Assembly (NCBI GenBank): GCA_902615045.1 | Contig: CACMNP010000004.1 | Location: forward strand, 1-57,054 | Direction: 5' to 3' | Source of the DNA: an uncultured Pelagibacteraceae bacterium | Lineage (GTDB): Bacteria > Pseudomonadota > Alphaproteobacteria > Pelagibacterales > Pelagibacteraceae | Length of the DNA stretch: 57,054 bases | In this document: positions 437 through 49,247 of the stretch, one piece after another | Position numbering within the stretch: the first letter of the stretch is position 1 | Layout of the letters: each line of letters begins with the position of its first letter | Made by a program: the position numbers and the translations under genes | Notes under the pieces: generated by a model | Told to the model about the DNA's origin: nothing | Databases searched by the model: none | What the model saw: only the letters and a program-made list of their open reading frames with translations

Positions 437-1753
437 ATGATAAGGGATCAGGAATTTTTAAGAGATATAGCATCTTATTGTATTGAAAACTCTAAAAAAC
501 TAGGAGCCACGGATGTGGGTGTAAAAGTAATTCACTCTGTTTCAGAAAATGTTAGTTTTAGAAATAAAAAATTAGACGAGTCAAATAGAGCAGATAGTTT
601 TGCTGTCAATTTAACTACTTATATAGAGAAAAAAAAATCAAGCATTAATTCATCAGATTTATCTAAATCAAACTTAGAAAAACTAATAGAACGTTGTATT
701 GATGCTACAAAAATTACCCCATCAGATGAAAATAATTCGTTACCAGATAAAGATTTAATGTCTAAAGAGATAAGAGACCTTAATCTCTATGATGAAACAC
801 ATTATCCAAATGATAAAAAGATTGAATTTTTAAAAAAAGTTGAAGAAACAGCATCAACGGATGAAAAAATAGTTAATACTGAAGCTGGTTTTACCGAAAA
901 TAAAAATAATTTTATACTCGCAAACAGCAATGGTTTTTTAGGTGGATACAAAACCTCAAATTTTTCATCTTCATGTGTAGCTGTATCAAGAATTAATGGC
1001 GCAATGGAAAGAGATTATGAGTTTGGTAGCACAAGATTCTTGCAAGATATGATGAAACCAGAAGAAATTGGAAAAATAGCTGCCGACAAAGCAATAAAAA
1101 AGTTAGGTCCAAAAAAAATCAAGAGTGAAAAAATTGGCGTTATATTCGATAAAAGAATTTCCAAAGGAATATTAAGCACACTAGCAAGTGCAATAAGTGC
1201 GAGTGCTATTGCAAGAGGGACTTCTTTTTTAAAAGATCAAATCAATTCTGAAGTTTTTCCAAATTCAATTAATATCATCGATGATCCAAAAATTGAAAAA
1301 GGATTAGGCTCCCAAAACTTTGATAGCGAAGGTGTTGAGACCAATTCTTTGAAACTAGTTGAGAATGGTATTTTAAAAAATTATTTAATTGATACTTATT
1401 ATGGTAAAAAATTAAATTTAAAATCTAATGGAAGGTCTGGAGGAACAACAAACTTATACTTTGAAAACGGTACCTTAAGTTTTAAGAATTTGCTAAATTC
1501 AGAAAAAAAGTTTCTATACATAACAGAGACTATAGGCCATGGAGGTAATATTATTACAGGAGATTACTCAGTTGGAGCTTCAGGATTTATGGTTGAGGAT
1601 GGAGAATTAACTTACCCAGTAAGTGAAATAACTATAGCTGGAAATTTTAAGGAAATGTTTAAGAATATTACTTTGGCAAATGATTTAGAGATGAAGTACT
1701 CTACAAATGCACCTACACTTTTGATTAATCAAATGACAGTGGCTGGAAAATAA
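437..1753 (+). CDS. pmbA: PmbA/TldE, TldD-family protease subunit
   Basis: 438 residues, the full length for PmbA/TldE, the partner of TldD. Signs of the family are the N-terminal VKVIHSVSENVSFRNKKLDE segment, DPKIEKGLGSQNFDSEGVET in the middle, SNGRSGGTTNLYFENGT, and the C-terminal GDYSVGASGFMVEDGELTYPV and APTLLINQMTVAGK. The complex is known from work on microcin B17 maturation and CcdA antitoxin turnover in E. coli; what it cleaves here is not shown by the sequence. It lies 6 bases behind tldD, and the two are presumably cotranscribed. It ends directly against the stop of the convergent downstream gene. Confidence 0.93.
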   Translation: MIRDQEFLRDIASYCIENSKKLGATDVGVKVIHSVSENVSFRNKKLDESNRADSFAVNLTTYIEKKKSSINSSDLSKSNLEKLIERCIDATKITPSDENNSLPDKDLMSKEIRDLNLYDETHYPNDKKIEFLKKVEETASTDEKIVNTEAGFTENKNNFILANSNGFLGGYKTSNFSSSCVAVSRINGAMERDYEFGSTRFLQDMMKPEEIGKIAADKAIKKLGPKKIKSEKIGVIFDKRISKGILSTLASAISASAIARGTSFLKDQINSEVFPNSINIIDDPKIEKGLGSQNFDSEGVETNSLKLVENGILKNYLIDTYYGKKLNLKSNGRSGGTTNLYFENGTLSFKNLLNSEKKFLYITETIGHGGNIITGDYSVGASGFMVEDGELTYPVSEITIAGNFKEMFKNITLANDLEMKYSTNAPTLLINQMTVAGK

Positions 1754-2431
1754 TTATTGAATTTCTTTTAGCCTATATTCCCATAGACCCAATCTTTTAT
1801 AAGCTACTTTTATAATCAATGCTTTTTTCTTATCGTACCATATTTCAAAATTTAATTTTTTATTATCGGGTAGATTTGGGTTCGTAGAAAACAGTCTAAA
1901 ATGTTCAACATCATATTCTTTATTATAAAGTTTTATTTTTTTTTTCCCCAAAAATTCTATGTTTTGTTTTTTTACACTTCCAGATAAGGGACTTATTTGT
2001 GTTTCGGTTTGTAAAATTCTATGATTCCACCAATGACCAATTATATTTTCTTTATCAGCCTCTCCTTTATATGATGACCCATTAATTATAAACTTCTCTT
2101 TTTTTTCGTCAAAAATTAAATTTACATATTTTCTTTTATCATTTTGAAATGTTTCTGAGTTAAATGAAATTAATTGATCTCCAATATACTCCTCGGTTCC
2201 TCTGCTATTTACAGAGAACACTGTAACACCCAATAATTTTACATTGAAATTAGTCTTGTTTTTAACAATAAATTTATTTTCTTCTTTTTTAAAAGTAAAA
2301 ATACTTTCTCCAATTTTTTCATCATCTTTAAATATCTCCATTTCTATGTTTGAATAATTTTTATAGTGATCAGTATGTGCTTGCAAAAAAAGAGGAGATA
2401 AAACTAACAATATTACTAAGAATTTTCTCAT
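1754..2431 (-). CDS. Exported protein of unknown function, DUF6134-like
   Basis: 225 residues beginning with a clear signal peptide (MRKFLVILLVLSPLFLQA, likely cut after QAH or LQA), so the product is probably periplasmic. The rest is rich in alternating hydrophobic/charged residues typical of beta strands, with no transmembrane helix. The pattern 'IGESIFTFKKE...FNVKLLGVTVFS...GHWWN' resembles DUF6134 proteins, which have no assigned function; I recall this family from memory and could not confirm it. It is convergent with pmbA (zero gap) and divergent from the YczE-like gene, so it is probably a single-gene transcript. Confidence 0.7.
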   Translation of the reverse strand: MRKFLVILLVLSPLFLQAHTDHYKNYSNIEMEIFKDDEKIGESIFTFKKEENKFIVKNKTNFNVKLLGVTVFSVNSRGTEEYIGDQLISFNSETFQNDKRKYVNLIFDEKKEKFIINGSSYKGEADKENIIGHWWNHRILQTETQISPLSGSVKKQNIEFLGKKKIKLYNKEYDVEHFRLFSTNPNLPDNKKLNFEIWYDKKKALIIKVAYKRLGLWEYRLKEIQ

Positions 2432-2510
2432 TATTTCATATTATTTTAATTAACTTATTTGAACTTTATCTAGAATTTTTATGTTTAAAAGATAAATAGT
2501 CTAAAGAATT

Positions 2511-3158
2511 ATGTTTTTAACCATTAAAAATATCCCCTCAAAATCTTGGAGCTCAGAAAAACCTTTAAATTTAAAACCTAAATTTACAACTTTTTTACTT
2601 TTATGTGTTGGTTTATCTTTATTTGGGTTGGGAGAGGGTCTTTTATTAGTTTCTACTACTGGTAATTCTCCATGGTCTGTTCTTGCTGAGGGTTTATCAA
2701 ACATATTAAATATTTCGATCGGTTTATCTACATTCATAATAAGTATTGTTGTTTTAGGGTTTTGGTTTCCACTAAAACAAAAACCAGGAATTGGTACAAT
2801 TCTAAATATTCTAATTATAGCAGCGATAATCGATTTGACCCTTTTTCTCTTTGATCCACCTTTGACTACTTTTTCAAAATATATTCTTGCTGTATTTTCT
2901 GTTTTGCTTGTCGGTCTAGGAAGTGGCATATACTTAATTGCAAATTTAGGTCCTGGTCCTAGAGATGGATTGATGACGGGTCTAACAAAAAAAACTCAAC
3001 TTCCTATTGCTTTAATTCGAGCTACTTTAGAAATTTCAGCTGTTATATCTGGTTGGTATTTAGGAGGAACTGTTGGTTTGGGCACTATAATATTTGCATT
3101 TGGGATAGGCCCTGCTGTAGCTTTAGGAATCTATATTGTGGATAAAGTTACGAAGTAA
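2511..3158 (+). CDS. YczE/YitT-family integral membrane protein
   Basis: 215 residues with about five hydrophobic helices (approximately 23-45, 53-78, 87-105, 121-142, 155-200). The repeated Gly/Pro motifs GNSPWSVLAEGL (about residues 47-58) and NLGPGPRDGLMTGL (about 144-157) are the paired signature of the YczE/YitT family (BCR, YitT). The role of these proteins is not firmly known; B. subtilis YczE affects bacillaene synthesis and others are treated as putative transporters. The ATG at 2511 fits; 79 bases separate it from the divergent exported-protein gene. No partner gene points to a substrate. Confidence 0.75.
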   Translation: MFLTIKNIPSKSWSSEKPLNLKPKFTTFLLLCVGLSLFGLGEGLLLVSTTGNSPWSVLAEGLSNILNISIGLSTFIISIVVLGFWFPLKQKPGIGTILNILIIAAIIDLTLFLFDPPLTTFSKYILAVFSVLLVGLGSGIYLIANLGPGPRDGLMTGLTKKTQLPIALIRATLEISAVISGWYLGGTVGLGTIIFAFGIGPAVALGIYIVDKVTK

Positions 3159-3218
3159 ATGCTTTTAGTGGACAATTAGTCGATTGTTAATACTGAATAA
3201 AAATTGTAAGTATAAATC

Positions 3219-3674
3219 ATGTCTATAAAAAATTGGATGAAAGAATCTGCGAATATACTATTTGACGACAGTAAAAATGATTTAAGAGCACTTCCTAAAA
3301 CTGTGAGACTACAAATATTATTAGTTTTGAGTTTTATATGGACAACAGTATTTAGTTTATACGTATTTTCATATGCCACTTTTGCATTTGGTTGGGCAGG
3401 GACATATGTTGCTCATATAGGTTTAATATTTGCTGTTTATTATACTTTTAAACAATTTCATAGAGCTGAAGCAAAAGCTGTTAGTGTTTTTAAGACAAAA
3501 AATTTTGATCCATTTAAAATAATGACAATTGTTTTTGTCATAGTTTTTATTTTTGTTTTCTCAAAAGGAATTGAAGTATTGACAAGAACAAACTCTTACT
3601 CAATTCCATATGACGGACCTAGTAAATCAGCATTTGAAAAGTGGCTGCCTTTTACTAAAAATAAATCTGAATAA
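3219..3674 (+). CDS. Small membrane protein of unknown function
   Basis: 151 residues; I do not recognise a family. There is a charged N-terminal stretch (residues 1-28, MSIKNWMKESANILFDDSKN...) followed by three predicted membrane helices at about 30-52, 54-72 and 96-116, and a soluble tail of about 30 residues (SYSIPYDGPSKSAFEKWLPF). No Cys or His clusters suggest a metal or redox site. It follows the YczE-like gene by 60 bases on the same strand and converges on typA with only 6 bases between the stops. Composition matches the neighbours, giving no sign of transfer. Confidence 0.7.
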   Translation: MSIKNWMKESANILFDDSKNDLRALPKTVRLQILLVLSFIWTTVFSLYVFSYATFAFGWAGTYVAHIGLIFAVYYTFKQFHRAEAKAVSVFKTKNFDPFKIMTIVFVIVFIFVFSKGIEVLTRTNSYSIPYDGPSKSAFEKWLPFTKNKSE

Positions 3675-3680
3675 TAATTT

Positions 3681-5507
3681 TTAAGAAGCTTCTGATAATT
3701 TAGAGAGCTTTTTTCTCTCGTGAGGATCAAGCACAGCTTTCCTTAATCTGCATGAATTTGGCGTAATTTCTAGTGCTTCATCAGAATTTAACATGCTCAA
3801 TTGTTCAGCAATAGACATCTTTCTTACTGGAGTTAAAACAACATTTTCATCTGTTCCTTGTGTCCTCATATTTGTAAGTTTTTTACCTTTCATGACATTT
3901 ATAATCATATCACCAGGTTTAGGTGACAATCCTACAATCATACCCGAATAAACTGGGTCGTTATGAGTAACAAACATTTCTCCTCTTGCCTGTAGATTAT
4001 AAATTGCAAATGCTACTGCTTTTCCTTGTTCCATAGAGATTAATGCACCATTTCTTCTACCTTCCATATCTCCCTCAAATTTTCCATATGAATGGAATAT
4101 TCTGTTTATTACTCCTGTTCCTTTAGTTAGAGTAAGAAATCTACTAGTGTATCCCATTAAACCTCTAGTTGGTGCATGAAAGATTAATCGTTTTTTATTT
4201 TTTCCAGTATCTTTAAGATCTATTAATTTTCCTTTTCTTTTATTCATGGAGTCTATAACTTTAGAAGAGAACTCTTCATCTAGATCCATAGTAATTTCTT
4301 CAATAGGTTCTAATTTATCACCATTTTCATTTTTTTGAAATAAAACTCTAGGAGGGCTTACTGTCATTTCAAATCCTTCACGTCTCATTTGTGTTAGTAA
4401 TATTTCCAACATTAATTCACCTCTTCCACTTATTTCAAATGAGTCTTTGTTATTATTTTCTGAAAAAGAAATTCCAACATTATTTTGAGCTTCTTGAACT
4501 AATCTCTCTCTGATTTGAGTACTTGTAAGTTTTTTACCTTCTGTACCAGCTAATGGAGAACTATTTACTGTTATTTTGATAGACATCGTTGGTGGATCAA
4601 TTGGGGTTGCTTGTATTGGTGTATCTACCTCAGTATCACATATGGTATCAGCAACATTTGCTTTTTCTAATCCAGCGATAACTACAATATCTCCAGCTTC
4701 TCCAACTTCTATCGGTACTTTTTTTGTTCCCTCGTATCTAAATATTTTAGTCAACCTTCCCTCATCGACTTTTTCTCCATCCAGATTAATTGCCTTGATT
4801 TGTTGGTTTGCTTTTGCAGTACCTTGAGAAATTCTACCAACTAAACTTCTACCCAAAAAACTATCTGCATATAAAAGAGTCGAAAGCATTGCAAACGGCT
4901 TGGATTTGTCAAATTCTGCTGGATTCACATGATCTATTACTAAATCTAATAATGGGTTTAAATTCTCTCTTGGGCCATCTATTTCTTTAGATGCCCAACC
5001 AGATCTTCCACTTGCATAAATAACTGGAAAGTCTAATTGTTCTTCGTTGGCATCTAAGCTGACAAACAAGTCAAAAGTCTCATTTAAAACTTCATCTGCT
5101 CTTTGGTCAGCTTTATCTAATTTATTAATAACTACTATTGGTTTAAGGCCTTGTTTAAGTGCTTTAGCTAATACAAATTTAGTTTGAGGCATTACTCCTT
5201 CGGCTGAATCTATTAACAATAATGCACCATCAGCCATACTAAGAACTCTTTCAACTTCTGCAGCAAAATCTCTATGTCCAGGTGTATCAATAATATTAAT
5301 TCTTGAATCTTTCCAATTTATTGAAGCTGGTTTGGCAAGAATTGTAATACCTCTTTCCTTTTCAAGTTCACCGGAGTCCATAAGTCTTTCGTCAACAACT
5401 TCATTTTCTCTAAAAGAACCACTCTGTTTCATTAAGTTATCAATCAAAGTAGTTTTGCCATGGTCAACGTGAGCAATTATGGTGATGTTACGTATTGATG
5501 TTGTCAT
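3681..5507 (-). CDS. typA: Translational GTPase TypA/BipA
   Basis: 608 residues, the standard length. It is an EF-G-like GTPase that binds the ribosome and helps 50S assembly and stress adaptation. G-domain motifs are intact: G1 AHVDHGKT (12-19), G2 ERGIT (51-55), G3 DTPGH (74-78), G4 NKLD (128-131). The C-terminal half has the TypA-specific GRGELMLEILLTQMRREG and TRGLMGYTSRFLTLTKGTG. It lies downstream of groEL on the same strand but is separated from it by a strong hairpin terminator, so it should have its own promoter in the ~45 bases after that hairpin; no clear -35/-10 pair was found there. Confidence 0.96.
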   Translation of the reverse strand: MTTSIRNITIIAHVDHGKTTLIDNLMKQSGSFRENEVVDERLMDSGELEKERGITILAKPASINWKDSRINIIDTPGHRDFAAEVERVLSMADGALLLIDSAEGVMPQTKFVLAKALKQGLKPIVVINKLDKADQRADEVLNETFDLFVSLDANEEQLDFPVIYASGRSGWASKEIDGPRENLNPLLDLVIDHVNPAEFDKSKPFAMLSTLLYADSFLGRSLVGRISQGTAKANQQIKAINLDGEKVDEGRLTKIFRYEGTKKVPIEVGEAGDIVVIAGLEKANVADTICDTEVDTPIQATPIDPPTMSIKITVNSSPLAGTEGKKLTSTQIRERLVQEAQNNVGISFSENNNKDSFEISGRGELMLEILLTQMRREGFEMTVSPPRVLFQKNENGDKLEPIEEITMDLDEEFSSKVIDSMNKRKGKLIDLKDTGKNKKRLIFHAPTRGLMGYTSRFLTLTKGTGVINRIFHSYGKFEGDMEGRRNGALISMEQGKAVAFAIYNLQARGEMFVTHNDPVYSGMIVGLSPKPGDMIINVMKGKKLTNMRTQGTDENVVLTPVRKMSIAEQLSMLNSDEALEITPNSCRLRKAVLDPHERKKLSKLSEAS

Positions 5508-35618: not shown

Positions 35619-35781
35619 TTTCATCCTTTTTAAAAAATGGAATTAAAAATATTATACAAGCAATAAAAAAAAACAGGCTTCCGAACATAGCCCAAAAACT
35701 TCCTACACTTGAGATGATGAAACCAATTGAAGATATAATGAACAATATCCACCCAATTAGATTTATAGTTTTATTTTTCAT
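35611..35781 (-). CDS. 56-residue two-helix membrane protein between blh and ispH
   Basis: An open frame of 56 codons. Short basic N-terminus (MKNKT), two adjacent hydrophobic helices (about residues 6-28, INLIGWILFIISSIGFIISS, and 30-49, FWAMFGSLFFFIACIIFLIP) and a charged end FFKKDENE. Its ATG overlaps the blh TGA by 4 bases; its TAA lies 8 bases into ispH. Such two-sided coupling and clean membrane topology argue for a real gene. The family is not recognised; there is a faint likeness to YrhK-type small proteins. A role tied to retinal or rhodopsin membranes is only a guess from location. Confidence 0.75.
   Translation of the reverse strand: MKNKTINLIGWILFIISSIGFIISSVGSFWAMFGSLFFFIACIIFLIPFFKKDENE
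35624..35628 (-). promoter_or_regulatory. Shine-Dalgarno that decides the ispH start
   Basis: AAGGA on the minus strand with five bases to the ATG at 35618. It lies within the last codons of the 56-residue membrane protein gene, so ribosomes ending there could restart directly on ispH. Confidence 0.6.
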
Positions 35782-36671
35782 TTTTTTTCTACCATGAATT
35801 CAAGTAAAATATGAGGAAAGGTCAATGAAGCCAATCCAACAAATATTATTTTAATAATACTTTCATCTATACCAAATTTTTCTGAAATAAAATAAAAAAC
35901 TATTAAATACATTATTGCTGTAATTACTGTAAGTGGAATAATTTTTCGTAAAAAAATAGGAAATCCTTTCATCAAATTTTTATTTATTTCACTAATTAAA
36001 CTTAGTGAGTGTCTTATAGAATGAAGAAAGCAGAAATAAATTGTGAAAGCCAATATAGGGTTAAAAAAATAGTTTAAAATAATTATTGAAAAACTATCTA
36101 AAAAAAGAATTGATCTTAAATCAGTATTATTACCTCTATATATAAGAAAATTACTTAGCACTGATAATATAACTAAAGGAATTAAAAAATTATTTGCCAT
36201 AATATTTTCGTCTATTGAAAAATTTAACATTTTAAAAATTTCGATTGTCTCAGCTTTATGAAACAGTAAGGGTGCTGAAATAACTAATGATCCTTTAATG
36301 AAATAAAAAATTTCTAAAAAATTAGCATTTTTTGTTTCGATAAAGTCACTATCCTCTTTGCCAAAATGATATGCTGCAACTATTAAAAAAAGCGAAAGCA
36401 ACAATATTGGACTTAAAATCCAAATTAAAATAACAAAAATAGCAATACCTATATAAGTTATATAGAACACTTCTGTATTTTTAATTTTATAAATTTTTAA
36501 AAGTTTTTTACCCTTTTCATGATCCAGTGCACCGTGAGAGATACCAATTGTAAGAATTAAAAAAAAACTAAAAAGTATAAACGAATTATTCCTCAATACC
36601 TCAAAGGCAGAAAAAAAAATACAGATATTAAAAAAAATAATAGAATGAAAAAAATTTATTTTGTTGATCAT
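35778..36671 (-). CDS. blh: Brp/Blh-type beta-carotene 15,15'-dioxygenase
   Basis: 297 residues, about eight membrane helices. It splits beta-carotene into two retinals, the chromophore of proteorhodopsin. His-bearing segments expected for the iron site are all present: ISHGALDHEKGK (about 44-55), AAYHFGKEDSDF (about 98-109) and CFLHSIRHSLS (about 218-228). Its start shares a base with the crtY stop (TAATG). No rhodopsin gene is in this window, so opsin must be elsewhere if present. Confidence 0.93.
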   Translation of the reverse strand: MINKINFFHSIIFFNICIFFSAFEVLRNNSFILFSFFLILTIGISHGALDHEKGKKLLKIYKIKNTEVFYITYIGIAIFVILIWILSPILLLSLFLIVAAYHFGKEDSDFIETKNANFLEIFYFIKGSLVISAPLLFHKAETIEIFKMLNFSIDENIMANNFLIPLVILSVLSNFLIYRGNNTDLRSILFLDSFSIIILNYFFNPILAFTIYFCFLHSIRHSLSLISEINKNLMKGFPIFLRKIIPLTVITAIMYLIVFYFISEKFGIDESIIKIIFVGLASLTFPHILLEFMVEKK

Positions 36672-37738
36672 TATTTAAATACAGCTTTAATAAAAATCCA
36701 TTTTGGCATCTTTAATATAATGGATAAGTCCTCGAAAATATTACTTTTATTGGAAAGGAAATTTATTACTGTTTTTGACTTGCTTTTAAACATTTTGAAG
36801 AAAATATTTGGCATGATCTCTGGCTTTTCAGCTAGGACTTTCAAAAAAACATTATCTAAAAACTTATACTTACTTTTTATATTGAAAGCTCTAGTTTGGG
36901 CTATTTTATCAATGTTTTGGGTAATATATTCTGCTTGTTCTTGAATATTTAGGAAAGTATAGCCAGTACTTAAACGCGTCATACCACCAGCAGTTCCAAT
37001 ATTAATCGTATTTTTGTCGTTTTTAAATTTTGGATAAAATAATGGTATGGCCCCAACTTCTTTATAATTAATTTTATATTTTTTTAATTTTAAAGTGTTT
37101 TCGATGTAATCAGTAATTTGTTTATCATAATCTTTTTCACTATCATCGTCCATTTTTGAAAGCCACGTAGTTTCGATTAAAGCTGATTTTTTTGAATAGG
37201 GTAGTGTATAGAAAAAATGAACACTTTTTTTTTGATCACAATCAAAGTCCATTAAATTCATTATTTGATCATCAAAAAAATCTTTTTCGGTTTCAATCTC
37301 AACACCTTGAAAGTGTTGCCATAAATTAGAATCTTTATTATCAAGATTTGGCAAACTGTTAAATAAAATTGCGTTTTCTGTATTTACTTCACTAATATCT
37401 TTAAAGAATTGAATATTAGGATTTTTATTGATTTTATTTAAAATTTTTTTGTAGAATAGTCCACTATCAATACTTTCGTAAGGAGTTTCTTTACAATCTT
37501 TATATTCAACATTTCCTTTAAAATTGATTGTATAATCTTTCCATCTTTTTTTTACACAGTCATCAAACTTGTGAGGTACAGTTTTCCAATAAGACCAAGT
37601 TTTATCTCTTTTATATTCATCTCTTTTTTCAATAATTGCTAAAGTCTTATTTTTAAGTTTATCGTGATACTCTAACTCATAAGCCAATGTTAAACCTGCA
37701 CAGCCTCCTCCAATAATTATGTAATCAAAATCTTTCAT
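36671..37738 (-). CDS. crtY: Lycopene beta-cyclase (CrtY)
   Basis: 355 residues from the ATG at 37738 (a TTG start three codons earlier, 37747, is also open). It closes both ends of lycopene to give beta-carotene. FAD-binding N-terminus DYIIIGGGCAGLTLAYEL, then FFYTLPYSKKSALIETTWLS and GTAGGMTRLSTGYTFLNIQEQ, the CrtY-type marks. It overlaps crtB by 14 bases. Confidence 0.93.
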   Translation of the reverse strand: MKDFDYIIIGGGCAGLTLAYELEYHDKLKNKTLAIIEKRDEYKRDKTWSYWKTVPHKFDDCVKKRWKDYTINFKGNVEYKDCKETPYESIDSGLFYKKILNKINKNPNIQFFKDISEVNTENAILFNSLPNLDNKDSNLWQHFQGVEIETEKDFFDDQIMNLMDFDCDQKKSVHFFYTLPYSKKSALIETTWLSKMDDDSEKDYDKQITDYIENTLKLKKYKINYKEVGAIPLFYPKFKNDKNTINIGTAGGMTRLSTGYTFLNIQEQAEYITQNIDKIAQTRAFNIKSKYKFLDNVFLKVLAEKPEIMPNIFFKMFKSKSKTVINFLSNKSNIFEDLSIILKMPKWIFIKAVFK

Positions 37739-38576
37739 TATACTCAATATCTTGCATTATTATCTCATGTTCTTTTATTGTAAGTTTTTTATCTTCTTTT
37801 ACAAAATATAATTTAATTAAATCACCAATAGATAGCACTGTATGTAAGACTTTTCCCAAATTGTTTACATAAATTTTTCCTGATTTATTATAATTTTCTA
37901 AGTTTCCTTTTTTTAAGATTTCATTTCCAATTTGTCTATATACTCGTCTTGCAACCAAAATCGAAAATCTTAAAAAAAATGGAATTTTTTTAATTGATAT
38001 AAAAGAATTATTATAAAATTTGTCAGCGATTTTTAGAATTCTTTTAATTTCATCAAAATTCTTTTTTATATAAAACCTATTATTGCTTTCATCTTCAATA
38101 ACATCTCTTGAAATATTAGTTAATTGCATTGCAATACCTAAGTCAATCGCTCCTAAAAGTGCTGATCTTTCTTTGACATTTAAAATTTTTGCCATCATTA
38201 ATCCAACTGTTCCAGCCACTCTATATGAATAAACATATAGATCTTTGTCAGTGTTGATTTCTACTTTTGATTTTATATCGGCCTCGACGCCATCGAATAA
38301 ATCATCAATTATTTTTTGTGATATTCCAAATTTATCTATTAAAGCCCACATATTTTTAATTATTTGTTTATTTTCATTTTTTAATTTGAAATCTTCTTTG
38401 AAAGTATTGAAATTTTTTAATTTCGTATCAAGATCACCTTTTTCATCTGCTATATTGTCTATGTATCTGCAAAAATCGTACAAATTAGAGCAATCAGAGT
38501 AGACTTTTTTTGGTAAAAAGAAACCTGCCCAATTGAAAGATTTAGCGTATATCGACAAATAATTTTGTTCATTCAT
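37725..38576 (-). CDS. crtB: Phytoene synthase
   Basis: 283 residues. It joins two geranylgeranyl diphosphates into phytoene. First Asp-rich motif LYDFCRYIDNIADE (about 27-40; DxxxD kept), second motif AMQLTNISRDVIEDESNNRF (about 150-169). Start and stop overlap crtI and crtY. No crtE (GGPP synthase) occurs in the window; its product must come from a gene elsewhere. Confidence 0.94.
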   Translation of the reverse strand: MNEQNYLSIYAKSFNWAGFFLPKKVYSDCSNLYDFCRYIDNIADEKGDLDTKLKNFNTFKEDFKLKNENKQIIKNMWALIDKFGISQKIIDDLFDGVEADIKSKVEINTDKDLYVYSYRVAGTVGLMMAKILNVKERSALLGAIDLGIAMQLTNISRDVIEDESNNRFYIKKNFDEIKRILKIADKFYNNSFISIKKIPFFLRFSILVARRVYRQIGNEILKKGNLENYNKSGKIYVNNLGKVLHTVLSIGDLIKLYFVKEDKKLTIKEHEIIMQDIEYNERF

Positions 38577-40033
38577 TACAAAATTTTATCTAAGACCTTT
38601 GCGGATGATAGGACCCCTGGAACACCAGCTCCAGGATGAGTGCCTGCTCCAACAAAATATAAACCATCATAAACCTCAGATTTATTATGAAATCTAAAGT
38701 ATGCTGATTGAGAAAATTTGGGCTGAATTGAAAAACCCGAGCCATATTTTGTATTTAATTCATTTTCAAAATAATCAGGGGTTAAATAAAAATCATCTAC
38801 AATATTTTCTCTTAAATTTGGTAATAAACTTTTTTCCATTTTATCTATTACAAGTTTTTTTAGATTCTCACCTTCGACTGACCAGTCTATTCCTGATTTA
38901 TTATTAGGTACAGGCACTAATACATAAAAGCAATCGTGGTCTTTTGGTGCCATACTCGAGTCAGTCGCGGTAGGCCTATGTAGATAATAGCTTATATCGC
39001 TATTTAATTTTTTGTTTACAAATATATCATCCAAGTGTTCTTTGTACTTATCGCCAAACTTTATAGTATGATGTTCAACATTTTCGTATTTTTTCTTTGT
39101 TCCAAAATAATAAACAAACAATCCCATTGAATATTCCATTCTATTTATCTTCCAATTAAATAAGGTGTTATATTTTTGATTATTTAGCATTTTTGAATAA
39201 ACACCGGGAGGATCTGCATTACAAACTACGTTATCTGCTTTAATTTCCTCATCTTCACTTGTCACAACACCGACAACTCTTTTATTTTCTGTAAGCAAGT
39301 TTTTAACTTCTTTACCTTTAATAATTGTAACATCTTCTTCTAACATCAATTTCTCAAAACCTTTTATGATTTGTCCCGTTCCACCCATAGAATAATGAAT
39401 TCCCCATTTTTTTTCTAAATACAAAATTAATCCATATATAGAGGTTGTAGTAAAAGGGTTCCCACCCACCAATAATGGGTGCATACTAAATAGCCTTCTT
39501 AGTTTTTCATTTTCAATAAAACCACTAACCAAAGAATAAACAGATTTATAACTTTTTAAACTTAGCAATGCAGGAATTTGCTTAAACATAAATGAAGGTT
39601 TATCAAATGGCACATCTGATAATTCTGAATAACCCTTATCAAATATTTTTTTTGTAAATTTAAGTAAATTTCTGTAACCCACAACATCTTTATGATTAAT
39701 TGTTGCAATCTGTTCTTCCATTTTCTTTTCATCAGCTGAATAATCAAAATGGCTTCCATCTTCAAAAACAAATCTGTACCAAGTATCCAAATCTTTTATT
39801 TTTATGTAATCATCTGGATTTTTATTAAAAAGTTTAAAAATTTCATAAATTAAATATGGAGCGGTTATTACAGTTGGTCCACCATCATAAGTGAACCCAT
39901 TACTTTTAAATACTCTCGCTCTTCCACCTAAATCTTTTTGTTTTTCAATTAAAGTGACTTTATGGCCTTTTGCCCGAAGTCTTAGAGCTGCTGCTATGCC
40001 ACCAAAACCTGATCCAATTACAATTGAATTCAT
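38576..40033 (-). CDS. crtI: Phytoene desaturase (CrtI)
   Basis: 485 residues. It takes phytoene to lycopene in four desaturations. FAD-binding IVIGSGFGGIAAALRLRAKG at residues 4-23, followed by LIEKQKDLGGRARVF, GFTYDGGPTVI, and the C-terminal YFVGAGTHPGAGVPGVLSSA. First gene of the crtI-crtB-crtY-blh set. It lies 48 bases after atpF on the same strand; this gap contains a TATAAA box but no clear -35, and AAGGA close to the ATG. Confidence 0.95.
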   Translation of the reverse strand: MNSIVIGSGFGGIAAALRLRAKGHKVTLIEKQKDLGGRARVFKSNGFTYDGGPTVITAPYLIYEIFKLFNKNPDDYIKIKDLDTWYRFVFEDGSHFDYSADEKKMEEQIATINHKDVVGYRNLLKFTKKIFDKGYSELSDVPFDKPSFMFKQIPALLSLKSYKSVYSLVSGFIENEKLRRLFSMHPLLVGGNPFTTTSIYGLILYLEKKWGIHYSMGGTGQIIKGFEKLMLEEDVTIIKGKEVKNLLTENKRVVGVVTSEDEEIKADNVVCNADPPGVYSKMLNNQKYNTLFNWKINRMEYSMGLFVYYFGTKKKYENVEHHTIKFGDKYKEHLDDIFVNKKLNSDISYYLHRPTATDSSMAPKDHDCFYVLVPVPNNKSGIDWSVEGENLKKLVIDKMEKSLLPNLRENIVDDFYLTPDYFENELNTKYGSGFSIQPKFSQSAYFRFHNKSEVYDGLYFVGAGTHPGAGVPGVLSSAKVLDKIL

Positions 40034-42148: not shown

Positions 42149-42424
42149 CTATTTTTGCATTTTTTTTGCTGATCTAATAACGTTCATAATTCCAGCTACT
42201 ACACCAATAAAAAAAAATATTAAAATTAACCAGGGTTTAGTACCAAACCAATTGTCTAAAATAAACCCAATAATTGTCCCAACAGCCACTGCAGATACCA
42301 ATTCCGTGCTCATTTTGAAGGCTGATCCCATACTTGAGCCTTTATTTCCCTCTTCAGATTTTTTGTCTTTATCGGTTTTATTTTTTGCAATTTTTAGGCG
42401 AGTTTTAAACTGGTCTTCATCCAT
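42149..42424 (-). CDS. atpI: AtpI/AtpZ-type F0 assembly protein
   Basis: 91 residues: a charged N-terminal half (MDEDQFKTRLKIAKNKTDKD...) and two membrane helices (about 41-60 and 66-84, with a conserved-looking GFILDNWFGTKPW loop between). AtpI/AtpZ proteins precede F0 genes and help c-ring assembly or ion uptake. It starts only 2 bases after the smc stop, so it seems to be read from the smc message or from a promoter within smc. Confidence 0.88.
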   Translation of the reverse strand: MDEDQFKTRLKIAKNKTDKDKKSEEGNKGSSMGSAFKMSTELVSAVAVGTIIGFILDNWFGTKPWLILIFFFIGVVAGIMNVIRSAKKMQK

Positions 42425-42426
42425 TA

Positions 42427-45000
42427 TTAAGCAACCATACTCTCTGCTTTTTGAAGATCTACAGCAACTAGTTGGCTAATTCCTTTTTCTGGCATTGTTA
42501 CACCATATAGTCTGTCCATTTTAGACATGGTTAAAGCGTGGTGAGTTACAATAATAAATCTTGTAGATGTGATTTTAGTTAGTTCCGTCAAAAGATTGCA
42601 GAATCTTGTTACATTCGCATCATCTAGAGGTGCGTCTACTTCATCGAGAACACATATCGGAGCCGGATTAGTAAGAAACACTGCAAAGATTAAAGATAAA
42701 GCAGTCAGGGCTTGTTCACCTCCAGATAATAAAGTTATTGATTGTAATCTTTTTCCTGGTGGACTTACCAACATTTCTAATCCTGCATCTAAAGGATCAT
42801 CAGAGTCTACTAATTCTAGTTTTGCACTACCTCCATTAAATAGTTTGGTATAAACTTCATTGAACTTTCTATTCACTTTTTCAAAAGCATCTAGAAGTCT
42901 TTCCCTACCTTTCTGATTGAGTTCAGTAATACTTTCTTTTAACTTTATAATTGCAGTTACTAAATCTTGTCTATCTTTTTCCATTTTCTTAATTTCATCT
43001 TCATATTTTGAAGTCTCTTCGTCTGCTCTTAAGTTGACTGAGCCTAATTTTTCTCTTTCCCTTTTTCTTTCATCAAGCAATTCCTCTTGTGTTACTGTAT
43101 CTGGATATTCAGATACATTTTTTAGGTTTGAAAAATTCAGTATCTCTTCTTCTTTTAAATTAAGTTCTGTTGATACTCTTTCTAGCAAATCATTTCTTCT
43201 TTTATTCAAACCATCGATTGTTGCTCCAGAGCTTGCTTTTCGCTCTCTTATTTCAATAGACTCTTCCTTCGTTGTATTAAGATTGCTTCTTAATTCGTTA
43301 ATCTCTTTATCTAGTTCATCTATTAATATTTCATTATCACTTTTTTCTTTTTCAGAAATTCTTAAACTTTCCGATATTTGCCCTTTTCTTTCAGCTTGTG
43401 TTTGAGGTTGTTTTTCTAGGCTATCTAATTTTTTTTGTTGAGTATCTTTTCTACTATTTAATTCATTAATCATTTTTTCAGAATTTACCAATAAGTTTTT
43501 CCAACTTTCTATTTCTTGATCAATTATTTTAATTCTTTCACTTCTCTTAATTGATTCTTTTTTGATATTTTGATTTGTACTAAATGCTTCAGCGTATTCT
43601 TCTTGTAGACTTTTGATTTCTTCGTTTTTCTTAGTTACTGTTATCGCTAAATCATTATCATGCATTTCATTAATTTTCATTTTTAAAAATGAAAGATTTA
43701 TTTTGCATTCATCTATTAAATTAGTTGCACCATTAATATTGTTCTCTGAGAGCATTTCTTTTGCTTTATCTAACTGCTCACTTGCTAAATCAATAGTTTC
43801 TGAATTCTTTTTTAAAGTATCAAGGTTTAGATTTTCTAGTATTCTCTCTAACTTATCTTGCTCATCTTTTAATTTTCCTTTTGCATTTACTAAATCTAAA
43901 CCTGACAATTTTTCAGTTTCATAATATTTTGAATCGACTGTAATTAAATTTTCTTTTTCTTCTCTAAGTCTTTTTTCATTAGAGTTGGCATCAATGATTA
44001 TGCTTTTTTCTCTAACAATATCTTCATCTATTACATTTAAAGCCTTTCTAATTGATTGAATTTCATCATTAACCCTGTCTTTTTCTTCATCTAAGCTCTT
44101 TAACTCTAAATTTAACCTTTGTATTTTTGACAAGTTTTCTTGATTTTTTTCTCTTATAGGATTTACATTCTTATTCTTTTCAATAATCTTCATGCTTAAA
44201 TTCTCTAATTTATCATTGAAGGACTTAACTTGATCATCAGCCTCATTATTGATCTCGTTTTCTACTTTAATTTCATTATCAATTTCTAAAAGACGTAAAT
44301 AATATAAACCTGCCTCAACTTTTTTTATTTCTTCTGAAATAGATTTGTATTTTGCAGCCTCTTCAGCTTGCTTTTGCAAATTTGCTAATTGTCTTTCCTG
44401 TTGTCTTCTTAATTCATCTGCCCTTTTTAAATTATTTTCTGCCGCGCCTAATCGTAATTCTGCTTCGTGTCTTCTAACATGTAAACCTGCTATACCAGCT
44501 GCTTCTTCTAAAATAGCTCTTCGATCTGAAGGTTTTGCCGTAACCAATGCTCCAATTCTACCTTGACTAATAATCGAAGGTGAATGAGCGCCTGTTGACA
44601 AATCTGCAAAAAACATTTGAGCATCTTTAGCTCTAACTTCTTTCCCATTTATATAAAATTTTGAGCCTTTATCTTTTTCTATTTTTCTTCTTATTTCAAT
44701 TTCATCGAGCTCATTATATTGTAGAGGACCATCCTTGTTGTCATTTGATAAGCTCACTAAAACTTCTGCAATATTTTTTGATGGTTTGTTTGAAGTTCCA
44801 GAAAATATAACATCTTCCATTCCTGAACCTCTCATACTTTTTGCCGATGTCTCACCCATACACCATCGCAACGACTCCACTATATTTGATTTGCCACAAC
44901 CGTTTGGGCCAACTATCCCAGTTAAACCTTCTTCAATCAGGAAATTTGTTTTTTCAGCAAAAGACTTAAATCCATTTAGTTGGATTTTTTTAAATTCCAT
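42427..45000 (-). CDS. smc: SMC chromosome condensation ATPase, short form without visible hinge
   Basis: 857 residues against about 1150-1190 for most bacterial SMCs. The head is complete: N-terminal FKSFAEKT and Walker A GPNGCGKSN (about 32-40), QGRIGALVTAKPSDRRAILEEAAGI, and in the C-terminal part LLSGGEQALTALSLIF (signature) and ICVLDEVDAPLDDANVTRF (Walker B, D-loop). Between about 165 and 690 nearly everything is Glu/Lys/Asn/Leu-rich coiled coil. The Gly-rich hinge fold (~150 residues) normally at the middle cannot be found; near residues 345-450 there is only a poorly ordered stretch. It still should act in chromosome organisation, but its dimer contact must differ. Head-proximal parts match alphaproteobacterial SMC. 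Confidence 0.92.
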   Translation of the reverse strand: MEFKKIQLNGFKSFAEKTNFLIEEGLTGIVGPNGCGKSNIVESLRWCMGETSAKSMRGSGMEDVIFSGTSNKPSKNIAEVLVSLSNDNKDGPLQYNELDEIEIRRKIEKDKGSKFYINGKEVRAKDAQMFFADLSTGAHSPSIISQGRIGALVTAKPSDRRAILEEAAGIAGLHVRRHEAELRLGAAENNLKRADELRRQQERQLANLQKQAEEAAKYKSISEEIKKVEAGLYYLRLLEIDNEIKVENEINNEADDQVKSFNDKLENLSMKIIEKNKNVNPIREKNQENLSKIQRLNLELKSLDEEKDRVNDEIQSIRKALNVIDEDIVREKSIIIDANSNEKRLREEKENLITVDSKYYETEKLSGLDLVNAKGKLKDEQDKLERILENLNLDTLKKNSETIDLASEQLDKAKEMLSENNINGATNLIDECKINLSFLKMKINEMHDNDLAITVTKKNEEIKSLQEEYAEAFSTNQNIKKESIKRSERIKIIDQEIESWKNLLVNSEKMINELNSRKDTQQKKLDSLEKQPQTQAERKGQISESLRISEKEKSDNEILIDELDKEINELRSNLNTTKEESIEIRERKASSGATIDGLNKRRNDLLERVSTELNLKEEEILNFSNLKNVSEYPDTVTQEELLDERKREREKLGSVNLRADEETSKYEDEIKKMEKDRQDLVTAIIKLKESITELNQKGRERLLDAFEKVNRKFNEVYTKLFNGGSAKLELVDSDDPLDAGLEMLVSPPGKRLQSITLLSGGEQALTALSLIFAVFLTNPAPICVLDEVDAPLDDANVTRFCNLLTELTKITSTRFIIVTHHALTMSKMDRLYGVTMPEKGISQLVAVDLQKAESMVA

Positions 45001-45008
45001 TCACTGAC

Positions 45009-45584
45009 TTATATCAGTTTTTCAATGTATTTTTTTAATTTTTTGTAGTTTGAGTGATTTTCAAACTTTTTTCCGTTAATTATGACTGTAGGAGTAGAAT
45101 TCACTTTATACTTTTTAACACCTTCGATTCGGTCTTCTAAAATGTGATCCTCTATCTTCTTATCAGCCAAGCACTTATCAAAATCAAGATTATATTCAGT
45201 ATTATCAATAAATTTTTTCATTGCTTGATTTGCTTCCAATTCATTTTTTCCCTTGATCCACTTATCTTGATTTAAATAAAGGTGATGCAAAATTTCGTGC
45301 TCACCATCATTTCTACAATGCGCTAATTTAGTTGCATTAAATGCAATGATATCTAATGGGAAGCTTTTAAATTCTATTGAGATCAATCCTTTATCAATAA
45401 AATCCTCTTTTAGTTTAGGATAAATATTTTTATGAAAATTTGCACAAAAACTGCAAGTTAAAGATTCAAAAACCATCAACTTAACTTTAGAGTCTGCACT
45501 TCCAACTAAAATTGGTTTAACTTCAGAATTAGCATTAATGAAATTAAAAAAAATTAAAATTGAGACAAGAATTATTTTTTTCAT
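45009..45584 (-). CDS. DsbA-like thiol oxidoreductase, exported
   Basis: 191 residues. A signal peptide (about 1-20, MKKIILVSILIFFNFINANS) sends it to the periplasm. The thioredoxin fold has the active CxxC as TCSFC (about residues 39-43) and the cis-Pro loop NSTPTVIINGKKF. An inserted helical part lies between them, as in DsbA/DsbG-like proteins of the DSBA superfamily (thioredoxin_4). It should make or move disulfides. Overlaps dciA by 4 bases; the dciA-dsbA-smc order is alphaproteobacterial. Confidence 0.9.
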   Translation of the reverse strand: MKKIILVSILIFFNFINANSEVKPILVGSADSKVKLMVFESLTCSFCANFHKNIYPKLKEDFIDKGLISIEFKSFPLDIIAFNATKLAHCRNDGEHEILHHLYLNQDKWIKGKNELEANQAMKKFIDNTEYNLDFDKCLADKKIEDHILEDRIEGVKKYKVNSTPTVIINGKKFENHSNYKKLKKYIEKLI

Positions 45585-46063
45585 TTTATTTTAAAATGTT
45601 TACTTAGCTCTAAAAGTGAGTTTTTTATTTTGTCATTTTTAATATTATTTATGCTCTTTATATGTTTATTTTTTGTCGCATTGATAGCGGTATTTTTATG
45701 GCTTTCTTCAATTTTTCCATCAAATGTATTCAATTTAATGTCATCTAAAACATGATAGCCAAAAAAAACATTAATTTTTTTTATTATTTCTTTTTTAGAA
45801 TACTCAACGTCAACTTCATTTCCCCTCTTTACTAAAATATTTAAACGACTGCCCGATAACTTGTTTGAACTTTTATATGACTTAGGAAAGCTTACTTTAA
45901 ATAAATCTTTACCTACTAAATATTTCCAATTATCTAAAGTCTCATTATAAATTTTACCTTTTTTGCTAATTATTCTTTTTGCTTCTGTGGGTAAAGTATC
46001 TTTAAAAGATCTTAAACCTTGAATGGAATTATATCTCTGCTTAGTATTATATTTTTGACTCAT
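45581..46063 (-). CDS. dciA: DciA-like (DUF721) helicase-loading protein
   Basis: 160 residues. The central WKYLVGKDLFKVSFPKSYK...LNILVKRGNEVDVEYSKKEIIKKIN matches DUF721, whose member DciA helps load the DnaB helicase in bacteria without DnaC/DnaI. Highly basic at both ends. Its ATG lies back to back with that of mutY on the other strand, with no base between. Its second codon area contains a GANTC site (46057-46061). Confidence 0.82.
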   Translation of the reverse strand: MSQKYNTKQRYNSIQGLRSFKDTLPTEAKRIISKKGKIYNETLDNWKYLVGKDLFKVSFPKSYKSSNKLSGSRLNILVKRGNEVDVEYSKKEIIKKINVFFGYHVLDDIKLNTFDGKIEESHKNTAINATKNKHIKSINNIKNDKIKNSLLELSKHFKIK

Positions 46064-47056: not shown

Positions 47057-48177
47057 AAAAAGTTGCAATTGTTGGAGCTGGCATATCTGGTTTGTATCTT
47101 GCAAATGAATTAAACAAAGATACTGAAATAGACTATAAAATCTTTGAAAAAAAAGATTTCCTCAATTTAAATGAAGGTTATGGCATTCAACTTTCAGTTA
47201 ATAGTATTAATTTGTTGAATAAAATAGGATTTAAAAATATTTCAGCATCAGATGTTTATTATCCAACAAAAGTTAATTTTTTCCAGGCTAATAATATTAA
47301 AAAGATTTGTGAAATTGATTTAAAGCAATTCAATAATGTAAACGACCGTTACACAACACTTAAAAGATCAACATTAATAAAGTTTTTAATTGGCAATATT
47401 CCTGAGGAAAAAATTCAATTTAAAGCCAATATTCAAAATATCGAATATAATGAAAAAATAAAGATTTCTTGGAATAATAAGAATGAAAGTTTCGATTATA
47501 TAGTAATTGCAGACGGTGTTTTTTCAAAATTAAAATCCCAAATATCCAATAATGATTTAAACCCAATTTTTAATGGGAACATTGCTTTAAGGGCGAATTT
47601 AAAACAACATGAAAAAGATAATATTTCTGTATATATGGGGTCAAATTTTCACTATGTAACTTATCCTGTAAATCAAAAACTCGAATACAATTTCGTTGCT
47701 ATAATCAAAAAGAAGTTAACTACTAAAGAAATTGAAGATAAAAATATTCTTAATTCTGAAACATTTATAAAATCTTTAAAAGACCTTATTTCAAAAAATT
47801 CTATTATAAATTTGGAAAATTTAGTAAATTTAAAGTGTTTTCCTGTATTTGTGAGCACTGAATTACCCTCATTAAAATACCAAAATACTTTTTTGAGTGG
47901 AGATGCTTTATTTACTTTTCCACCTTCTTTTGCACAAGGTGCTTCTCAAAGTATTGAAACAGCAAATGGTATTTTTGAAAATATTACAAGTTCAAATAGT
48001 ATTTATAAAGATAAGGTAAGTAAAATATTACTAGTAAATAAAAGATCAAAATTAAACCATTTTGCCTTCCATTTAACTAATCCAATAATAATATTAATTA
48101 GAAATATTGTTTTGAAATTTTTATCAAAAAATAAAAAATTTCTAGAGAGTTATCTTGGAAAAATTTATAGAAATTAA
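47053..48177 (+). CDS. FAD-dependent monooxygenase (class A flavoprotein)
   Basis: 374 residues. N-terminal FAD motif VAIVGAGISGLYLANEL (GxGxxG), middle IVIADGVFSKLK (the DG motif), and C-terminal FLSGDALFTFPPSFAQGASQSIETA, the GD motif of the PHBH/UbiH group. The last block is nearer to salicylate-hydroxylase-like enzymes than to classic UbiH. It may hydroxylate an aromatic such as a ubiquinone intermediate, but substrate cannot be named. Overlaps mutY as ATGA and the convergent ccrM end by 4 bases. Confidence 0.82.
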   Translation: MKKVAIVGAGISGLYLANELNKDTEIDYKIFEKKDFLNLNEGYGIQLSVNSINLLNKIGFKNISASDVYYPTKVNFFQANNIKKICEIDLKQFNNVNDRYTTLKRSTLIKFLIGNIPEEKIQFKANIQNIEYNEKIKISWNNKNESFDYIVIADGVFSKLKSQISNNDLNPIFNGNIALRANLKQHEKDNISVYMGSNFHYVTYPVNQKLEYNFVAIIKKKLTTKEIEDKNILNSETFIKSLKDLISKNSIINLENLVNLKCFPVFVSTELPSLKYQNTFLSGDALFTFPPSFAQGASQSIETANGIFENITSSNSIYKDKVSKILLVNKRSKLNHFAFHLTNPIIILIRNIVLKFLSKNKKFLESYLGKIYRN

Positions 48178-49247
48178 GTAGTTGGCCTTAGTCTTTGCCT
48201 CAAATCATCAATTGGTTTGAGTGAATTACCTGATTTATAATACCAAAAAGTCCAACCGTTACAGCTCTCAGCACCTAATATTTGTGCAGCAACTTTATGA
48301 ATTGATCCTTCTGATTTCCGATATTTTATACTACCATCAATCATAATTTTCGCATTGATTTGTTTTTTTTGATCAAAAATTTCAGTACCAGGTTTAATAA
48401 TTCCTAATTCAACCAAAGATCCAAATGGCACTCTTGGTTTGGATCTATTATTTTTTATAGTATCTAAATATTCATCTTCTATAATTTTTGTATTTTTAAT
48501 TCTTTTACTTGCAGCTTCAAAATAGTTTTTTTCTTTTTCTATCCCAAAATAATTTCTACCTAACTTTTTTGAAACTACAGCAGTTGTTCCCGTACCGAGA
48601 AACGGGTCCAATATTAAATCGCCTTTATTAGACGATGCTAATATAATTCTGTGCAATAAAGACTCTGGCTTTTGCGTTGAGTGAACTTTATTACCATTAT
48701 TTTTAAGTCTTTCTTTTCCACTACATATAGGTAAATTCCATGTAGATCTCATCTGTAGATCATCGTTTAAACATTTAAGTGATTGATAATTAAAAGTATA
48801 TTTTGAGCCTTCACTTTTTGATGCCCATATAAGTGTTTCGTGCGCATTCGTAAAACGTGTTCCTCTAAAATTTGGCATAGGGTTATTTTTATTCCAAATC
48901 ACATCATTTAGTATCCAAAAACCTAAATCTTGCATTTTTGAACCAACTCTAAAAATATTATGATAACTTCCTATGACCCATATAGATCCATTTTTTTTTA
49001 AAATTCTTTTACATTCTTTAAGCCATTGAACTGAAAACTCATCATAACTTTTAAAACTATCAAATTTATCCCACGCATCGTCTACAGCATCGACTTTAGA
49101 TCTATCAGGTCGAATCAATTCTTTTTTCAGTTGAAGGTTGTAAGGTGGATCTGCAAATATCAGATCAAAACTTTCAGCCGGAATTTTTTTTAATTCCTTA
49201 ATACTATCTCCATTAATAATTTTATTTTTTATGTCTGAAATGATCAT
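48174..49247 (-). CDS. ccrM: CcrM-type adenine DNA methyltransferase (GANTC)
   Basis: 357 residues. A solitary beta-class N6-adenine methylase: catalytic DPPY (33-36) in FADPPYNLQL, then RPDRSKVDAVDDAWDKFDSF, WVIGSYHNIFRVG, NPMPNFRGTRFTNAHETLIWA, and the SAM-binding LDPFLGTGTTAVV, nearly identical in pattern to CcrM of other alphaproteobacteria. The C-terminal ~85 residues (from about 270, ...GTEIFDQKKQINAKIMIDGS...) form the RAMA-type domain. No restriction enzyme is nearby. CcrM methylates GANTC after replication and marks cell-cycle stage in Caulobacter. Its own promoter holds two GANTC sites. Confidence 0.95.
   Translation of the reverse strand: MIISDIKNKIINGDSIKELKKIPAESFDLIFADPPYNLQLKKELIRPDRSKVDAVDDAWDKFDSFKSYDEFSVQWLKECKRILKKNGSIWVIGSYHNIFRVGSKMQDLGFWILNDVIWNKNNPMPNFRGTRFTNAHETLIWASKSEGSKYTFNYQSLKCLNDDLQMRSTWNLPICSGKERLKNNGNKVHSTQKPESLLHRIILASSNKGDLILDPFLGTGTTAVVSKKLGRNYFGIEKEKNYFEAASKRIKNTKIIEDEYLDTIKNNRSKPRVPFGSLVELGIIKPGTEIFDQKKQINAKIMIDGSIKYRKSEGSIHKVAAQILGAESCNGWTFWYYKSGNSLKPIDDLRQRLRPTT

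Follow-up and report, generated by a model that had tools for sequence, protein, structure and literature searches.

Pelagibacterales encode a predicted Smc orthologue without a recognisable hinge domain

The Smc protein of the order Pelagibacterales (SAR11) has, as comparison of its sequences shows, lost the hinge together with the outer arms of its coiled coil, and has retained its ATPase heads, its place in the genome and its partners ScpA and ScpB. We analysed a stretch of 57,054 nucleotides (the window) from an uncultured Pelagibacteraceae bacterium (assembly GCA_902615045.1, contig CACMNP010000004.1), in which smc occupies positions 42427..45000 of the reverse strand (-) as an open reading frame with an ATG start that encodes 857 aa, identified by Pfam, NCBIfam and solved-structure matches. 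The open reading frame, structure matches and alignment place the N-terminal ATPase half at residues 1-160 (44521..45000, -), with Walker A (GPNGCGKSN, residues 31-39) inside it, and the C-terminal half at residues 685-857 (42427..42948, -, stop codon included), with the signature LSGGEQ (758-763) and Walker B (VLDEVDAPLDD, 784-794). Both halves are therefore intact, as the initial annotation had read them from the sequence, and the ATPase motifs, Walker A included, are invariant across 49 aligned sequences.

Pfam recognised SMC_N in the protein (1.2e-48), and the NCBIfam equivalog for bacterial Smc, TIGR02168 (SMC_prok_B), scored 678.6 bits against a cut-off of 567.35, as compared to 43.6 bits for the best Rad50 model. 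Both halves also match solved Smc heads, and Smc constructs are the best structural relatives of the protein. On the same strand (-) lie genes for a DsbA-like thioredoxin (45009..45584; Thioredoxin_4 9.3e-35; DSBA 0.00087, below its cut-off), dciA (45581..46063; DciA 2.6e-8) and an atpI-like gene (42149..42424; ATPase_gene1 6.7e-17); an HhH-GPD glycosylase gene, presumably mutY, and atpB are further neighbours. Because the equivalog score, the gene neighbours (dciA among them) and a tree of the heads agree, sequence evidence identifies the protein as the true smc orthologue, which bears out the original assignment; since the hinge is absent, it is to be regarded as a variant Smc orthologue and not as a canonical Smc. 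Elsewhere in the window, genes for a lycopene cyclase, a phytoene synthase, an amine-oxidase (which we take to be crtI-like) and a beta-carotene dioxygenase are clustered at 35778-40033, adjoining the ATP synthase genes, a set as for making retinal. Near smc, at 48174-49247, is a DNA methylase with a C-terminal RAMA domain, presumably CcrM-like.

At 857 aa as against about 1150, the protein is indeed shorter than usual by the ~300 residues first noted. In alignments, nearly all of the length difference falls in one segment, residues 327-494: it is 168 aa long here and 461-470 aa in nine hinged SMCs, and it measures 109-195 aa, ends included, in the aligned Pelagibacterales rows. Alignment also defines two conserved sub-apical stretches, one on the N strand (residues 327-365; 43906..44022, -), the start of which is common to full-length alphaproteobacterial SMCs, and one on the C strand (residues 462-500; 43501..43617, -).

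No SMC_hinge match was found in the window protein with Pfam at E<=1, including at residues ~345-500, where a hinge had been looked for specifically, and a search of 297 genomes of the order with PF06470 matched none. This family is too weak to be used alone: it matched in 74 of 240 genomes of the class Alphaproteobacteria as compared to 151 of 240 with a class-derived profile, missed the hinge of a HIMB59-like SMC (locus L162), and gave no match in a Caulobacter control genome, which we take to have an SMC. We therefore dropped it as the sole test of a hinge and built a tuned profile from hinge sequences taken from 26 full-length SMCs of the class, which was run on all SMC proteins cut from their loci. 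Held-out full-length SMCs (L191-L210) scored at least 82.2 bits in 20 of 20 cases, and two held-out short SMCs with hinges scored 75.3 bits (L162) and 99.8 bits (L159). The window protein scored -2.5 bits. Across 127 Pelagibacterales SMCs (110 distinct) the tuned profile reached at most 4.1 bits, with five proteins giving no domain at all, and it reached at most -1.3 bits in seven proteins (five distinct) from a second small alphaproteobacterial order, f25, to which we return below.

A wider profile, A2, which includes L159 and L162 and for which the class search served as positive control, matched in the 151 of 240 class genomes mentioned above and, in six-frame searches of 197 genomes of the order (149 of good quality), in none. 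An SMC N-head was matched in 168 of the 240 class genomes, 11 of them weakly (E above 1e-10), which leaves 157; comparing the two lists by eye, we found a hinge in 150 of these as well. The seven exceptions are three Pelagibacterales (G000, G001, G003), two f25 genomes (G319, G450), and G312 and G340, whose SMC coordinates run off the contig start; one further genome (G321), with a hinge match and no N-head match, brings the class total to 151. That A2 finds hinges in so much of the class and in none of the 197 Pelagibacterales genomes argues that hinge loss is lineage-wide in this order, as had been proposed from the window alone, and excludes assembly error as its source. As a separate observation, 72 of the 240 alphaproteobacterial genomes (47 of the 194 of good quality) gave no N-head match and 11 more gave a weak one, and therefore whole lineages of the class may have lost SMC altogether.

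The short protein is widespread in its own order. A match to it was found in 267 of 297 genomes (140 of 150 of good quality), 30 giving none, and among the matches listed those frames that span its full length are ~798 to 891 aa long. At least 502 stretches are related to it, and the best 80 all encode 857 aa, such that no deletion or assembly error absent from relatives was found. The hinge-less proteins that we examined, 134 in all and 115 distinct, were picked by their Walker A and signature motifs and include those of the window and of its own locus; they fall into length classes of 798, 803-817, 857-864 and 880-881 aa. For the whole smc gene dN/dS was 0.03-0.08 in seven pairs, three of them including the window gene and two approaching saturation of synonymous changes, indicating by sequence comparison that the gene is under purifying selection. 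Values for the apex were noisy, from 0 to 0.53 with one undefined.

Of 58 genomes examined in the order, 51 gave a match to ScpA and 51 to ScpB, with neither in the other seven, and ScpA was present in three genomes (G022, G046, G124) whose SMC is 99-100% identical to that of the window. It was also found in three of five f25 genomes and in the two genomes with short hinged SMCs (G326 and G456). The search for scpA and scpB suggested at the outset therefore succeeded in the order and failed in the window's own genome, which is 74% complete and gave no match to either; we take that as a consequence of its incompleteness. Since both partners occur across the order, these results suggest that the SMC-kleisin complex is retained there although the hinge is gone.

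The site usually held by the hinge is occupied by an apex at residues 390-447 (43660..43833, -), delimited by AlphaFold2 and alignment. It lies between an N-terminal coiled-coil strand (residues 161-389; 43834..44520, -; predicted as a helix at 157-390) and a C-terminal strand (residues 448-684; 42949..43659, -), also drawn from AlphaFold2, the head boundaries of both strands being estimated. An AlphaFold2 monomer of residues 320-520 (43 sequences) had a mean pLDDT of 93.9 and consisted of helices only, at 321-389, 393-418, 422-445 and 448-519, with no strand predicted in this region. A hinge, by comparison, has a mixed alpha/beta fold. The full-length monomer (49 sequences) reached a mean pLDDT of 65.8 with poor heads, probably because the alignment is shallow, and served for helix extent only, in which it agrees with the apex model. 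Foldseek matched the apex model to no solved structure at E<=0.001. The 50 rows listed from VIA-align had Z scores of 11.5-13.4, a range that by the tool's own account may mean a common arrangement alone, and were mostly generic helical hairpins and coiled coils (dynein stalk, chemoreceptor, PI3K iSH2); we claim no structural relative from them.

The breaks between helices near residues 390-392 and 446-447 are about equidistant from the turn near 420. In the model, the breaks may put a kink in an extended tip, or may let the short helices pack together in a four-helix bundle. The 798-aa forms lack ~30 residues on each side of the hairpin of helices 2 and 3 in the alignment, as though the outer arm had been trimmed equally on both sides to leave a bare hairpin. 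Mean column identity among eight representatives falls to 0.59 at the apex, lower than in any other stretch and set against 0.87 at residues 321-365 and 0.81 at 466-510, and the apex's share of Val, Ile, Leu, Met, Phe, Trp and Cys (0.33) is the highest outside the C-head, with 0.23-0.28 in the arms, as would be seen in a helical bundle or contact surface. Cys432 is kept in 111 of 111 857-aa forms, but no equivalent residue is present in the apices of L169 (798 aa), L163, L171, L172, L173, L175 and L176; the idea that it forms a new hook was dropped, given its absence from these other rows of the order. Searched over their whole sequence, 0 of the 134 hinge-less proteins (115 distinct) contain CxxC.

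If the heads are taken as about 160 and 172 residues, we estimate each strand, from head to turn, at ~260 residues for the 857-aa protein and ~233 for the 798-aa one. The commonest length of natural prokaryotic Smc arms is 238, and artificially shortened B. subtilis Smc arms are reported to function again at 253-267 (PMC5344682). By analogy, the SAR11 arms show a resemblance in length to natural and working Smc arms.

Without a hinge, a reasonable inference is that dimerisation or loop extrusion proceeds by a different route. The explanation that we judge best, to which we would give an even chance, is an ordinary Smc-ScpAB condensin that has lost the hinge and outer arms and whose SMCs are paired through apex hairpins or arms; replacement of the hinge contact by apex hairpins or arms would be the most likely arrangement. 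Each SMC would fold back on itself to give an ATPase head and an arm of ~230-260 residues with a closed helical hairpin at its end, and two such SMCs would pair near the apex through helical contacts, between hairpins or between arms, that replace the hinge. ATP and ScpAB would then join the heads, and loading and loop formation would run from the head end. Abolishing hinge dimerisation is said to inactivate Smc in B. subtilis, and a Rad50 zinc hook set in place of the hinge leaves the protein working (PMC5344682); likewise, the MukB hinge can substitute for the hook of fission yeast Rad50 (PMC6969161). By analogy, being joined seems to matter, and not the fold that does the joining. The SAR11 protein would in that case be the natural counterpart of the B. 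subtilis swap: like the Smc carrying the hook, Smc(Zh), its arm is closed without a hinge, whereas Smc(Zh) was engineered with a zinc hook (PMC5344682) and the SAR11 protein has none. As it has no CxxC hook, joining, if any, is therefore by helices. What counts against this explanation is the poor conservation of the apex (0.59) and its reduction to a bare hairpin in the 798-aa forms, which is therefore weak as a dedicated dimer domain. The lack of Cys432 in other rows of the order and the missing ScpA and ScpB matches in the window's own genome also weigh against it.

The same two features favour a bolder reading than that of SMCs joined at the apex, in which there is no apical dimerisation at all and the SMCs meet at their heads through ATP, bridged by ScpA-ScpB, to make an open clamp and no closed ring. 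Retention of both partners fits it too. We hold it only tentatively, as the less probable of the two, since B. subtilis Smc is described as losing its function without hinge dimerisation (PMC5344682) and the long arms are well conserved immediately beneath the apex, which would be odd if the apex were idle. Its larger corollary, that the Smc-ScpAB of an abundant bacterial group has no apical dimer interface of any kind and that SMC action needs neither hinge nor closed ring, we consider on the unlikely side. It is very improbable that a hinge is present and has diverged beyond recognition: Pfam does overlook real hinges, as it did in the HIMB59-like SMC, but the tuned profile that gave 75 bits on that protein gave at most 4.1 on the 127 Pelagibacterales SMCs, the segment available is 109-195 aa in the aligned rows of the order, and no strand is predicted in the window form.

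We give equally little credence to a hinge supplied in trans by a separate protein. A very divergent one is conceivable, but the six-frame profile found none in 197 genomes (149 of good quality) nor the Pfam family any in 297, and the arm strands are linked by predicted helices within one chain, leaving no open ends to which a hinge could be grafted. The initial annotation had also raised a likeness to SbcC/Rad50 or MukB. A head and an antiparallel coiled coil without a hinge are indeed the plan of Rad50, and a Rad50/SbcC-like repair ATPase in place of a condensin would look similar in outline; it would have a zinc hook CxxC, found in none of the 134 proteins, and the heads lie nearer to Smc in both solved structures and NCBIfam score (678.6 against 43.6 bits), the Smc partners are encoded (51 of 58 genomes each) and the position of the smc gene is retained. 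The likeness to SbcC/Rad50 is therefore not supported, and we regard a repair ATPase as a shade less probable even than the two preceding alternatives. As to MukB, no MukB family occurred among the eight Pfam families listed for the window SMC or the best 25 of its 33 NCBIfam families. A decaying gene or assembly artefact, which short length alone would suggest, is refuted by the constant 857 aa in the best 80 of at least 502 relatives and by the dN/dS of 0.03-0.08, and we attach next to no probability to it.

Short SMCs are found in other alphaproteobacterial lineages. The HIMB59-like SMC (L162 in G326, 1696-4293; 865 aa) resembles that of the window in length and gene neighbours and differs in keeping a hinge, matched by the profile at residues 369-485, on very short arms; a second short-armed SMC (L159 in G456; 881 aa) likewise keeps its hinge. 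The state of the hinge thus divides the HIMB59-like genome from SAR11. In f25 (L160, L161, L180-L183), a second small order whose genome records span about 0.6-1.1 Mb, the SMC is 803-817 aa and also hinge-less, and a frame of 806-820 aa like that of G319 occurs in five of the six genomes of the order of G319. A similar gene set, from DciA-like and DsbA-like to AtpI-like or AtpB-like as identified by reading translations, flanks smc in one f25 genome and one HIMB59-like genome.

In a tree built from the head sequences alone (69 rows, none of them actinobacterial), Pelagibacterales grouped together (100/95), as did f25 (100/100) and L162 with L159 (100/99); these three lineages were not joined to each other, and the bootstrap had not converged. 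In a second tree (66 rows, three long-branch rows left out), holding Pelagibacterales and f25 as one clade raised the likelihood by 67 (p-AU 0.992), the unconstrained search having failed to reach this topology, and two independent losses of the hinge in these orders are accordingly unsupported. The four short-SMC lineages stood opposite all 44 full-length rows in this tree, with SH-aLRT of 91, which is not firm. The simplest reading of these sequences is that the arms shortened first and that a single loss of the hinge came later. This history is unsure because the f25 and HIMB59-like rows have long branches and the composition of f25 is odd. Our best explanation for the whole Smc-ScpAB places the loss of hinge and outer arms in an ancestor of Pelagibacterales.

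Compared with the bacterial Smc of Smc-ScpAB (TIGR02168), the SAR11 protein is alike in its ATPase heads, gene neighbours, ScpA and ScpB and long coiled coil, and unlike in being without hinge and outer arms and in having an apex predicted as a helical hairpin. 'Hinge-less' SMCs have been reported from uncultured marine Actinomycetes (Sussfeld et al. 2025, PMC12153180), where they form a clade near the base of the actinobacterial sequences and are discussed by the authors as a paralogue or as belonging to an unknown lineage. Those proteins, marine and abundant, share SMC heads and a coiled coil without hinge or CxxC, whereas in SAR11, a known order with isolates among its members, the protein is the smc orthologue; the words 'Pelagibact', 'SAR11' and 'Alphaproteobacteria' are absent from the main text of that report. 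An earlier survey of SMC arm length is described as having collected its sequences with hinge alignments as queries (PMC5344682), and hinge-less SMCs could therefore hardly be seen in it. Among the titles and starts of abstracts listed from the open-licence PMC literature, we found no report of a hinge-less SMC in SAR11. What is described here is an Smc orthologue of a known complex that has no hinge, one of its defining domains; such a protein has been reported once before, elsewhere, and is set here in a named order along with partner proteins, an evolutionary history and a predicted apex.

In models of loop extrusion and DNA loading, the hinge is the permanent joint of the SMC ring and a possible gate. 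Pelagibacterales would provide a natural experiment on these models: a free-living order in which Smc, ScpA and ScpB are strongly selected and no hinge is found in the sampled genomes can show which steps of the cycle need one, and the order includes isolates. Whether a hinge is present, as in the HIMB59-like genome, or absent, as in SAR11, is also an unambiguous trait to bring to the debated position of HIMB59. Taken with the hinge-less SMCs of marine Actinomycetes reported in 2025 (PMC12153180), our findings suggest repeated loss of the hinge in ocean bacteria, and the cells of SAR11, which are very abundant, seem to run their condensin some other way.
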